Positions 4,284-33,826 of a stretch of 64,000 nt of DNA are shown here, one piece after another. The stretch is from Phenylobacterium sp. Its GTDB lineage: Bacteria > Pseudomonadota > Alphaproteobacteria > Caulobacterales > Caulobacteraceae. How positions within the stretch are numbered: position 1 is the stretch's first letter; each line of letters opens with the position of its first letter. The notes beneath the pieces are model-generated. The model searched no databases. It was not told the origin of the DNA and saw only the letters and a program-made list of their open reading frames with translations. The position numbers were made by a program, and so were the translations under genes. The stretch lies in assembly GCF_030651185.1 (NCBI RefSeq), contig NZ_JAUSCJ010000013.1:1-64000 (forward strand), in the 5' to 3' direction.

Positions 4284-5477
4284 CTAGGCTGTCGCCAGGG
4301 CGTGGAACTCCATGATTGCGCCGTAGCCGCCCAGGCCGTAGCCGGCGGTGAGTTGTTCCAGCTCCAGCATGTTGTGCATCAGCAGGATGGCCACCGAGCC
4401 GTTGGTGGGATCGGCCTGCCACCAGCCGCCATAGGCGCCGGGCCAGCCCACCGTGCCCACCCCGCCCTTGCCGCGCATCACCTGGGCGGTGGCCGGATCG
4501 AGAACGACAGAAACGCCGAGACCGAAGCCGGAGCCGGTCCCGAAGGTCGGCATGCCGAACATCTCAGCCCCCAGCCGCTGGGGGTCGGTGAGCCGGTTGG
4601 TGGTCATCAAGGCCAGGGTCTCCGGCGACAGCAGCTTCACCGACGGGTCCACGAACATGCGGGCGAAGGCCAGGTAGTCGTCCGCCGTCGACCACAGGCC
4701 CGCGCCCCCGGAGGCGAATTCCATGTCGCCCGGCCGCTCGGGCAAGGCCACGCCACCGGGCGGGGCGTCGATCTTCTTCAGCTTGCCGGTCATGTCGAAG
4801 CCGTAGAGCCCCGCCCGGCGGTGGCGCTTGTCCGGCGGCACGGAAAAGCCGGTGTCGCTCATGCCCAGGGGTTCGAACACCCGGTGGCGCAACACCTCCT
4901 CCAGGGTTGCGCCCTCCATGCGGGCCAGCAACAGGCCCAGCAGGTCGGTGGACCGGCCATAGGTGAAGGACGCCCCCGGCTGGCCCACCAGCGGCAGGCT
5001 CGCCAGCCCTGAGATCCAGGCGTCCGGCGACAGCGGGCTGTCGAGGTCCGGCCCCAGGGCCTCGCGGTGGGCCGCGTCGATGGGACCGGAATGGAAGCCC
5101 GCCTGGGTCAGGCCCGCCCGGTGGGTCAGCAGGTCCTCGAAGGTGATCTGCCGGTCGGCGGGCGTGGTGTCGTCCAGCGGCCCGTCAGGATCGCGCAGCA
5201 CCCGCATCGCCAAGAACTCCGGCGCCACGCGGGAGATCGGGTCCTCCAGGGCAAACCGCCGCTCCTGCAGCATCGTCATCGCCGCGGCCGAGACGATGGG
5301 CTTGGACATCGAGGCGATGCGGAAGAGGGAGTCCCGGTGCATCGGCAGGCCAGCCTCCATATCCCGCCAGCCCACAGCGGCGACCTGCGCCGCCCCGCCC
5401 CGCCAGACCAGGCCGACCGCGCCGGCCAGGTCTCCAGCCGCCACCACCGCCCCCAGGGCCTCATCGATCGTGTTCAT
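4284..5477 (-). CDS. Serine hydrolase, beta-lactamase/EstB family
   Basis: The 397-residue protein has the class C beta-lactamase/esterase fold signature: SMSK at residues 56-59 (nucleophile Ser56, Lys59), a tyrosine motif FTYGRS (Tyr173) and a C-terminal GxGG...GWPGAYGGWWQADP block in place of KTG. No signal peptide is seen, so it is probably a cytoplasmic esterase rather than a periplasmic lactamase. I start at the ATG at 5477, because GGAG lies 9 bases before it; an ATG at 5492 would add MESGR. It is divergent from the TetR gene at 5553 across a short AT-rich region and is a likely target of that regulator. A decayed paralogous tail lies at 583-747. Confidence 0.85.
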   Translation of the reverse strand: MNTIDEALGAVVAAGDLAGAVGLVWRGGAAQVAAVGWRDMEAGLPMHRDSLFRIASMSKPIVSAAAMTMLQERRFALEDPISRVAPEFLAMRVLRDPDGPLDDTTPADRQITFEDLLTHRAGLTQAGFHSGPIDAAHREALGPDLDSPLSPDAWISGLASLPLVGQPGASFTYGRSTDLLGLLLARMEGATLEEVLRHRVFEPLGMSDTGFSVPPDKRHRRAGLYGFDMTGKLKKIDAPPGGVALPERPGDMEFASGGAGLWSTADDYLAFARMFVDPSVKLLSPETLALMTTNRLTDPQRLGAEMFGMPTFGTGSGFGLGVSVVLDPATAQVMRGKGGVGTVGWPGAYGGWWQADPTNGSVAILLMHNMLELEQLTAGYGLGGYGAIMEFHALATA

Positions 5478-31657: not shown

Positions 31658-32869
31658 ATGGCTGATTTTGGCGGCGCCGATCTCGACGCTTTCCGCAGCG
31701 AAGCCAAGACCTGGCTGGCGGAGAACTTCCCCCCCTCCCTGAAGAACCGCAGCGACATTGCCGCCGCCGAGGCGCCGGTCCCCGTCGAGGGCGACTACAA
31801 GCTCTGGAAGGAGCGGATGGGCGCCAAGGGCTGGGGCGTTCCCACCTGGCCGTCAGAGTACGGCGGCGGCGGCTTGAACAGCTCCGAGGCCCGCGTGCTG
31901 CGCGAGGAGATGGCCGCCATCGGCGCCTGGAACCCCATCGGCGGCATGGGGGTGATGATGTTCGGCCCCACCCTGCTGGAATACGGCACCGAGGAACAGA
32001 AGCAGCGCCACATCCCGCCCATCGTCCGCGGCGAGCTGCGCTGGTGTCAGGGCTACTCCGAGCCGGGCTCTGGATCTGACCTCGCCTCCCTGCAGACAAA
32101 AGCTCAGGACAAGGGTGATCATTTCCTCGTAAATGGTTCAAAAATATGGACTTCTGGCGCTCAGTACGCCGACTGGTGCTTCTGCCTGACGCGGACCGAT
32201 CCCAGCAAGAAGCATGAGGGGATCAGCTTCCTGCTGATCGACATGAAGACGCCCGGCGTCGAGCCGCGGCCGATCCTGCTGATCTCCGGGTCGTCGCCGT
32301 TCTGCGAGACCTTCTTCACCGATGTGAAGGTGCCCAAGGAGAACCTGGTGGGGCCGCTCAACGGCGGTTGGACGGTGGGCAAGCGGCTGCTGCAGCACGA
32401 GCGCAACGGGCTGTCGGGCGGCGGCGGGGCGCCGGCGCGGAACAATCCGGCGGCGCTGCGGGAGATCGCCAAGAAATACATCGGCGTGGACGACAGCGGC
32501 CGGCTGGCCGACCGCGACTTCCGCACCCGGCTGATCGAGCAGGACATGAACGCCCGGGCCTATCAGCTCACCAACGCCCGGGTGGCCCTGGAAGCGCGCA
32601 ATCAGAGCGGGCCCTCCGCGGCGACCTCGATCATGAAGAACGCCAGCTCGAGCATCAATGTGAACCACGCCGAGATGGTGGTGGAGGCCATGGGCTATAA
32701 CGGCCTGGCCTGGGCCGGAGACGAGTTCAGCGCCGAGGAGCTGGCCGCAGCTAGAGCCTTCCTGCGGGTGAAGTCCGGGACGATCGCGGGCGGCTCCTAC
32801 GAGATCCAGAACAACATCATCTCCAAGCGGATCCTGGGTCTGCCCGACACCAACATCCACACCTACTGA
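31658..32869 (+). CDS. Acyl-CoA dehydrogenase
   Basis: The 403-residue protein has the ACAD N-terminal helical domain (FRSEAKTWLAENFPPSLKNR), the FAD/substrate-contacting block WCQGYSEPGSGSDLASLQTK (~128-147), the second block VNGSKIWTSGAQYADWCF and the C-terminal helical domain with GGSYEIQNNIISKRILGLP. This ending is typical of the large-ACAD group (FadE-like, including steroid side-chain enzymes). It oxidises an acyl-CoA at C2-C3 and passes electrons to ETF. AGGGA precedes the ATG. Confidence 0.9.
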   Translation: MADFGGADLDAFRSEAKTWLAENFPPSLKNRSDIAAAEAPVPVEGDYKLWKERMGAKGWGVPTWPSEYGGGGLNSSEARVLREEMAAIGAWNPIGGMGVMMFGPTLLEYGTEEQKQRHIPPIVRGELRWCQGYSEPGSGSDLASLQTKAQDKGDHFLVNGSKIWTSGAQYADWCFCLTRTDPSKKHEGISFLLIDMKTPGVEPRPILLISGSSPFCETFFTDVKVPKENLVGPLNGGWTVGKRLLQHERNGLSGGGGAPARNNPAALREIAKKYIGVDDSGRLADRDFRTRLIEQDMNARAYQLTNARVALEARNQSGPSAATSIMKNASSSINVNHAEMVVEAMGYNGLAWAGDEFSAEELAAARAFLRVKSGTIAGGSYEIQNNIISKRILGLPDTNIHTY

Positions 32870-33082
32870 TTGACCGCCTGGGGCCTCGCCGCTAAGGCGG
32901 GGCCATGGCCGCCTCGACCGCCACTGTTGCATTGACCGACCTGCGGAGCGTGCTGAACGCCCGCGGCGGCCGAGGTCTGCGCGTCTTCGGATAGACCGCG
33001 GGATCAGGCGCAGCCGTTCCCGGGCGCTCCGGGGACGTGAAACCACCGCCTGACATTCCCAAATCTATTCGGAGGAGCCACC

Positions 33083-33826
33083 GTGCTTTCCCTTTATCAA
33101 TCCAATGGGTTGGTCCACTGGACCGACCGTGAGATCCGCCTGCGCGACATGATGCAGGCCCACTTCACCGCCGAGATTTCGGCCTTCCTGACGAACGCCA
33201 ACCCCGCCTGGGACATCCGCCGGGTGGAGGCGCCGCAGCTGACGCCGCGCGAGATGGTGTCGGAGGCCTATGGGCCGGAGGACATCTTCTTCATCGAACG
33301 CCTGGGCGAGGCCCAGTTGGTCCTGCGGCCGGAGACCACGCCCTCGACCTACGCTTACATGGCCCACCTGCTGAACAGCCACGCCAAGGTGCGCATGCCG
33401 CTGTGTGTCTGGCAGGCCGGCAAGTCGTTCCGGCGCGAGCAGGACCAGGTGAGCAAGCACATGCGGCTCAAGGAATTCTGGCAGATGGAGTTCCAGTGCG
33501 CCTACACGGTCGACACCGCCAACGACTACCACGCCGCCAGCCTGGAGCCGGTGCGCCGGATGATCGAGGCCATGGTGCGGCTGCCCACCCGCATCGTGCC
33601 GTCCGACCGCCTGCCGGCCTATTCCCAGGTGACCATGGATGTGGAGGTCGACAACAGCGACAAGTGGATGGAGGTCTGCTCCATCTCCCGACGCACCGAC
33701 TTCCCGCAGGCGGCCCGGTTCGCCACCAAGGGCGGTGAGGTGCGCGAGGTGGCGGTGCTGGTGCTGGAGATCGCCATCGGCCTGGACCGCTGCGTCTACA
33801 ATTGGGGCGTGGCGGACGGGCGATAA
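33083..33826 (+). CDS. Stand-alone class II aminoacyl-tRNA synthetase core, glycyl-tRNA synthetase-like
   Basis: The 247-residue protein aligns by eye with the catalytic core of dimeric (alpha-2) glycyl-tRNA synthetase: LRPET (81-85), motif 2 GKSFRRE (113-119) followed by MRLKEFWQMEF (127-137), the glycine-pocket segment SISRRTDF (200-207) and motif 3 IAIGLDR (230-236). The ATP-contacting arginines are all present, so it should be able to adenylate. It is half the length of GlyRS (~450-500 residues), lacks any anticodon-binding domain, and ends 11 residues after motif 3. It may load an amino acid on a carrier, make an aminoacyl-adenylate for a metabolite, or regulate. The start is GTG with GGAGGA 6 bases upstream. 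Neighbours give no direct clue. Confidence 0.8.
   Translation: MLSLYQSNGLVHWTDREIRLRDMMQAHFTAEISAFLTNANPAWDIRRVEAPQLTPREMVSEAYGPEDIFFIERLGEAQLVLRPETTPSTYAYMAHLLNSHAKVRMPLCVWQAGKSFRREQDQVSKHMRLKEFWQMEFQCAYTVDTANDYHAASLEPVRRMIEAMVRLPTRIVPSDRLPAYSQVTMDVEVDNSDKWMEVCSISRRTDFPQAARFATKGGEVREVAVLVLEIAIGLDRCVYNWGVADGR

Follow-up and report, generated by a model that had tools for sequence, protein, structure and literature searches.

HisZ and the accessory subunit of polymerase gamma are class II aminoacyl-tRNA synthetase (aaRS) cores that have lost catalysis, and EpmA/PoxA is LysRS-like. Here we describe another free-standing class II core, which we call mini-aaRS and which most resembles dimeric glycyl-tRNA synthetase (GlyRS). 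Its gene lies in a 64,000-nt stretch of the Phenylobacterium sp. contig NZ_JAUSCJ010000013.1 (positions 1 to 64,000; this whole stretch is called the window). With a probability of about one half, we take mini-aaRS for an active minimal GlyRS-type enzyme that would acylate tRNA ends by acceptor-end recognition and would be expressed conditionally in bacteria, its substrate and acceptor being those we infer below. The gene and its ribosome-binding site are as follows:

33083..33826, + strand: mini-aaRS gene, encoding a 247-aa free-standing class II (GlyRS-type) catalytic core
33071..33077, + strand: Shine-Dalgarno sequence GGAGGAG of the mini-aaRS gene, read from the sequence

The gene starts with GTG at 33083 and ends with TAA (33824-33826). 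When the translation was re-read, the open reading frame (ORF) reported by an earlier, sequence-only reading of this DNA proved correct in frame, in length and in its five motifs (LRPET at residues 81-85, GKSFRRE at 113-119, MRLKEFWQMEF at 127-137, SRRTDF at 202-207 and GLDR at 233-236). Pfam PF00587 matched the protein at 1.3e-11 (45.4 bits, cut-off 29.3). The top NCBIfam model was dimeric GlyRS (NF003211) with 59.4 bits, far under its cut-off of 312, and a second curated GlyRS model reached 35.3 bits against 243.3, so that the protein falls below both family cut-offs. GlyRS was also the top PDB match, both for the window sequence (1.6e-8) and for the family profile (8.6e-20). The protein ends 11 residues past the motif 3 arginine, and no Pfam match to an anticodon-binding domain was found in it. 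Scores for the tRNA-synt_2 (D, K, N) core PF00152 (13.6 bits, cut-off 25), the hisZ model (23.5 bits, cut-off 271.65) and the PylRS catalytic domain TIGR02367 (13.2 bits, cut-off 178.15) all remained under threshold. The Pfam, NCBIfam and PDB matches, the last by sequence, profile and structure, thus agree on a GlyRS-type catalytic core without an anticodon domain, as the sequence-only reading had held. The short gene is present in a single copy in this genome, and a check for another GlyRS found GlyQ encoded separately elsewhere.

To compare active sites, we aligned 55 members including the window protein, of which 26 came from cells or metagenomes and the other 29 from viral records or contigs. 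In motifs 2 and 3, R117, E119 and R236 were invariant in all 55, as were the ATP-site residues that the sequence-only reading had named; neither a fold other than class II nor a loss of ATP-site residues appeared across the homologues. E84, E136 and E229 were likewise invariant. In GlyRS, according to PMC4938167, three glutamates hold the amino group of glycine, and we assigned these roles in mini-aaRS by alignment to GlyRS. Against eight presumed full-length alphaproteobacterial GlyRSs, the glutamates correspond and the motif 2 loop is of equal length. Ala231 of mini-aaRS is also Ala in three of these eight, and a Ser-to-Ala change in motif 3, once considered a mark of altered specificity, was dropped after consulting PMC4938167 and this alignment. 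An active minimal class II core is therefore predicted with near certainty. The invariant glutamates and the matching loop make glycine our first guess for the substrate, and a likely one.

The window protein had 1505 homologues at E≤1e-3, and a mixed-profile search, in which 7999 candidates were scored, returned 2079 family proteins at E≤1e-10; we examined the best 120 of each list. Such numbers show that the ORF is no chance one, and because the search was restricted to proteins of similar length, they do not reflect how common the short form is. Among 84,980 species genomes, close relatives occurred at 27 loci, including two partial ones, in Phenylobacterium, Devosia, Rhizobium, Mesorhizobium, Pleomorphomonas and two genus-less proteobacterial bins. 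In 385 alphaproteobacterial genomes we obtained 47 matches, of which 45 were frames of 454-555 residues, presumably full-length GlyRS. The short form was found only in the window's genome and in G146 (56% identical), that is, in two of the 385, which makes its distribution patchy. The 2.7-kb stretch surrounding the G146 copy contained no leader motifs and no tRNA. On the viral side, 19 of 50,697 phage records matched the window protein, each longer than 300 kb, and the family profile matched 30 viral contigs, with 11 exceeding 200 kb. No PHROG family matched the three enzyme-family members tested. The family tree does not settle ancestry between cells and viruses or the direction of transfer, and it places the viral L049 beside cellular rows. 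A search of the open-access literature did not find this enzyme family, its leader or the early stop in pth2 (see below) in print. Mini-aaRS belongs to a large family, so far without a name, of tiny GlyRS-type enzymes common to bacteria and giant phages.

Between an acyl-CoA dehydrogenase gene, which ends at 32869, and the mini-aaRS gene lies a conserved leader that the sequence-only reading had overlooked. It comprises a promoter, an upstream open reading frame (uORF) and a hairpin:

32870..32898, + strand: predicted sigma-70-like promoter, with -35 box TTGACC at 32870-32875, a 17-nt spacer and -10 box TAAGGC at 32893-32898
32905..32994, + strand: uORF of 29 codons plus TAG, probably leaderless, its ATG 6 nt past the -10 box
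32971..32976, + strand: invariant CGAGGT, read as codons CGA GGT, with a Shine-Dalgarno-like GAGGT within the uORF
32981..33038, + strand: leader hairpin, with P1 arms at 32981-32990 and 33029-33038, enclosing the uORF stop (32992-32994)

We compared this leader across 27 complete cellular loci (L001-L025, L033 and the window; two partial loci were dropped, and L022 and L023 are near-copies). The promoter layout was present in all 27, with a -35 box starting TTG in every locus and a spacing of 17 in 26. Its mean score was 11.07, against 5.36 (standard deviation 1.38) at 5400 random positions, 0.11% of which reached 11 or more; the real loci take the best of up to four ATGs and the random control does not. 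The uORF begins 6-8 nt after the -10 box across loci, which suggests a leaderless start, and ends 75-92 nt upstream of the mini-aaRS gene. Its open frame, its stop position and a C-terminal R-G-x-x-V were kept in 27 of 27 loci; counting CGA of the CGA GGT pair as the first codon, GTC is fifth and the stop eighth. CGAGGT itself occurred in 26 of 26 rows of two leader alignments. The 3' end of the uORF forms one arm of the hairpin, and the stop (TAG, TGA or TAA, depending on the locus) lies inside it. In the hairpin arms, 93.8% of 260 cells were paired and 45 cells were changed on both sides; for pairing, doubly changed cells and covariation score, none of 500 shuffles was as high, and sliding the arms lowered pairing to 27-43%. 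An Rfam search of the leader yielded no family and one chance match at E=1. Run on the 385 genomes with strict filters that weak copies could escape, the leader model matched the window alone, and the idea of a regulon was rejected. Taken together, the leader very probably controls mini-aaRS expression, and we take it for a translation-dependent attenuator. The bacterial copies carry a compact, testable control element.

We read 37 viral loci with ARAGORN (L029-L032 and L040-L072; some short, some near-copies). A tRNA was present in 16 of them, and in nine a CUA tRNA lay upstream of mini-aaRS on the same strand, at a distance of 52-1874 nt. These nine and L051 group together in a single branch of 10 rows, with weak support (84/78). 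Twelve viral records searched whole contained 2-67 tRNAs each; in Phosso, 51 of 62 tRNAs are located at 420-469 kb, and the CUA tRNA stands beside mini-aaRS at 172 kb. G73 was found in the nine CUA tRNAs by mini-aaRS and in one near pth2 in G009 (L029, L040, L042-L045, L047, L048, L050 and L156), and A73 in six CUA tRNAs elsewhere in these and in two other phages (L159-L162, L164 and L166). The CUA tRNA of G006 (L157), which by acceptor pairing may be A73, was left out of the G73 set.

Phosso encodes a second short class II core of 196 residues (L117:4096-4683), whose best match is HisRS (142.5 bits, cut-off 286.75) and which lies 275 nt behind a tRNA-His (L117:3746-3820); this position favors the view that the short cores of Phosso charge tRNAs. 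An annotated ATP-grasp gene lies about 3 kb upstream of mini-aaRS in the same phage, and Xanthomonas phage XbC2 has an R2K ATP-grasp ligase gene (L030:13087-13902) two genes downstream of mini-aaRS.

Near the phage mini-aaRS genes we found a gene for type 2 peptidyl-tRNA hydrolase (pth2) in which only two to nine codons precede an in-frame stop. PF01981 was present in all eight pth2 genes tested. The early-stop loci are:

L118, L120-L129, L276, L325, L333, L342 and L383, phage contigs: pth2 with an early in-frame stop

Among the pth2 genes read, 17 had an early stop and 13 had none (L119, L133, L134, XbC2, L357 and eight others, mostly more distant or paralogous), with the weak matches L130 and L131 outside these counts. 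The stop is amber in eight IMG/VR branch members, Phosso, G002, G009 and a partial second copy in G002. Scanning for CUA tRNAs turned up five more pth2 genes, four of which also have an early amber. Agrobacterium phage Atu_ph07 has an opal (TGA) pth2 and a UCA tRNA, with no mini-aaRS match. CUA tRNAs occurred in 14 of 15 phages with an amber pth2, four of the 15 having been chosen for such a tRNA; Atu_ph07 was not chosen for its suppressor. In the eight IMG/VR genes the amber codon is invariant, and in pairwise counts 64 of 89 differences before it and 171 of 292 after it were synonymous, with third-position differences of 67/112 and 265/396, respectively. These eight and Phosso have no ATG, GTG or TTG between the amber codon and the conserved domain; G009 has a TTG two codons past it. 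This pattern is consistent with readthrough of the pth2 early stop, making these genes candidate targets for phage suppressor tRNAs, with the identity of the stop codon matching the suppressor. For XacN1, PMC5852040 describes suppressor tRNAs whose target its authors looked for and report not having found; the UCA tRNA of Atu_ph07 had already been reported as a suppressor, with no target named in the passage of PMC6102473 consulted. Both papers also list peptidyl-tRNA hydrolases.

Genome-wide amber recoding was rejected, as TAG, though rare, serves as a normal stop in Phosso (5/95 and 3/40 coding sequence ends). Early in-frame stops preceded by a Shine-Dalgarno sequence were not enriched for TAG overall: TAG, TGA and TAA numbered 6, 3 and 1 in Phosso and, in sampled parts, 1, 2 and 5 in G002 and 2, 3 and 1 in G009. 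A first all-frame amber comparison returned mostly shadow frames (783 cases, 303 X to X; 60 listed), and pth2 alone was taken further. In G009, a second ORF after pth2 (about 221454; L234) may also start with MS-amber before 111 open codons. In G002, an odd 84-nt tRNA (about 96422; L222) has G73, an enlarged anticodon loop and a four-letter anticodon call, ctta.

In the mechanism we propose, mini-aaRS would make glycyl-adenylate and then load its glycyl moiety onto the 3' terminus of a tRNA or a tRNA-like RNA. It may recognize the acceptor end only, because its motif 2 loop is of GlyRS length and no other RNA-binding part is present; this raises the question of how a synthetase without an anticodon domain chooses its tRNA. 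Judged by its phage surroundings, mini-aaRS is more likely to charge a tRNA than a carrier protein, and we lean slightly towards a tRNA overall. In phages, mini-aaRS could supplement the phage's own tRNA set, with the neighboring amber (CUA) tRNA as the first candidate substrate in the Phosso-like branch. In Alphaproteobacteria, it would be a resident copy of patchy distribution and conditional expression, the latter decided by uORF translation through CGA GGT into the hairpin. As one example, the leader might sense slow decoding of the often glycine-rich end of the uORF, glycine codons being frequent there in Phenylobacterium and Devosia and less so in Rhizobium.

Several observations weigh against this proposal. 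In the leader, uORF differences outside the conserved end were spread over the codon positions (205/251/208) with no third-position bias, so there is no visible selection on the complete peptide. For the hairpin, two of the five covariation measures did not exceed shuffles (doubly changed pairs 5 vs. 4.6 and pair types 13 vs. 12.8), and no U-run follows it, which bears on the direction of leader control. The nine CUA neighbors are on one branch and therefore not independent, and the remaining member of that branch, L051, lacks a tRNA in the available stretch and gave no pth2 match. The available stretches around the relatives L031, L032 and L072, from a Brevundimonas phage and two Caulobacter phages, likewise contained no tRNA. 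In an open scan of viral contigs, 35 of 41 G73 CUA tRNAs and all 42 others were in stretches without mini-aaRS, the 35 including at least two short pieces (L331 and L349) of phages that do carry it. Such tRNAs therefore do not need mini-aaRS, and an obligate tie between the two was rejected. Finally, no CUA tRNA was present among the 44 tRNAs of the window's genome, and none was found by pattern in 16 host genomes carrying the mini-aaRS gene.

To look for partners, we compared all ORFs within about 10 kb of mini-aaRS, all against all, across the 27 loci and the window. No ORF family recurred beside mini-aaRS across genera. The groups spanning most genera were frames of mini-aaRS itself, followed by an ABC-ATPase family at scattered distances; several families were common to only two or three loci, mostly at scattered distances but some at similar upstream ones (L019 with L021). 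Only two window neighbors received Pfam names. No carrier protein, peptide or tRNA-like partner of the kind the sequence-only reading had suggested looking for recurred across genera, and these neighbors gave no support for a carrier-protein or operon partner, a distant carrier not having been searched for. Likewise, no split partner supplying an anticodon domain recurred, in a search made at neighbors only and not genome-wide. Elsewhere in the window's genome, some 4 kb away from the regular tRNA-Ser(GGA) gene, lies a near-copy of it that scores low and whose acceptor end is changed (L116:52-141, contig C4; L109).

The absence of a recurrent neighbor bears on the non-translational acceptor proposed by the sequence-only reading, in which mini-aaRS would activate an amino acid for a protein, peptide or small molecule, like the glycine:carrier protein ligases or EpmA. 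A carrier-protein ligase did appear among the structure matches, but behind 18 GlyRS entries, and no relative of these ligases was listed by sequence or profile search. With viral relatives near tRNAs in 16 of 37 stretches, CUA tRNAs among them in nine, we consider such an acceptor improbable. A regulator or sensor without catalytic activity, akin to HisZ and binding glycine or an adenylate, would suit a free-standing core behind a leader that looks conditional; loss of catalysis does occur among class II cores, and HisZ and polymerase gamma accessory subunit entries are among the structure matches. The invariance of the ATP and amino-group residues in all 55 members makes this highly improbable.

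A dedicated pair is a more serious rival, though still an unlikely one: in Phosso-like phages, mini-aaRS and the CUA tRNA would together read the early amber of pth2, and the bacterial gene would have been domesticated with loss of the tRNA. The order CUA tRNA, mini-aaRS, amber-pth2 in 9 of 10 branch members speaks for it, as do the coding signal on both sides of the invariant amber in eight members and the pairing of TAG stops with CUA tRNAs and of TGA with a UCA tRNA in Atu_ph07, which has no mini-aaRS match. However, a CUA tRNA and an early-amber pth2 also occur together in another four phage stretches, with no mini-aaRS in the part available, the CUA tRNA of G009 lies by pth2 and 18 kb from mini-aaRS, G002 has an amber pth2 and mini-aaRS with no CUA tRNA found, L051 has neither a CUA tRNA nor a pth2 match, and a host synthetase could charge the CUA tRNA. 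A bolder form is a little more doubtful still: a natural non-pyrrolysine orthogonal pair in which a 250-aa GlyRS-type core and a CUA tRNA insert a small amino acid at the early pth2 amber, making pth2 production dependent on the phage's suppressor, with Alphaproteobacteria having adopted the enzyme under a translation-sensing leader. Since the pth2 device also turns up in phage stretches that lack mini-aaRS, and the bacteria tested yielded no CUA tRNA, we do not claim the bacterial enzyme as a suppressor synthetase, and acceptor-end acylation by a minimal GlyRS-type enzyme remains our preferred reading.

Compared with described systems, mini-aaRS keeps in 55 of 55 members the catalytic residues that HisZ has lost, and unlike EpmA/PoxA it does not reach the cut-off for the tRNA-synt_2 (D, K, N) core. 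Like the glycine:[carrier protein] ligases (Bll0957, 4h2s/3mf1), likened here by entry titles, it is a free-standing class II core from Alphaproteobacteria that would act on a small amino acid; these ligases rank below GlyRS in structure, gave no listed sequence match, and no carrier-protein neighbor was seen by mini-aaRS. PylRS/tRNA-Pyl likewise joins a class II enzyme with a CUA tRNA, as at nine phage loci of mini-aaRS, and shows weak profile similarity (1.2e-6), but mini-aaRS is of GlyRS and not PylRS type, and the cells tested gave no such tRNA. The jumbo phages XacN1 and Atu_ph07 have CUA or UCA suppressor tRNAs according to PMC5852040 and PMC6102473, comparable to the CUA tRNAs at nine mini-aaRS loci; XacN1 has CUA tRNAs by the former, yet its pth2 is without an early stop. 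From dimeric GlyRS (Thermus 1b76, Mycobacterium 8u2p), mini-aaRS differs in its size of only 247 aa, in its score (59 bits, cut-off 312) and in being without the anticodon domain and the long insertion between motifs 1 and 2, and it shares with that enzyme the class II fold, motifs 2 and 3, the motif 2 loop length and the three glycine-binding glutamates.
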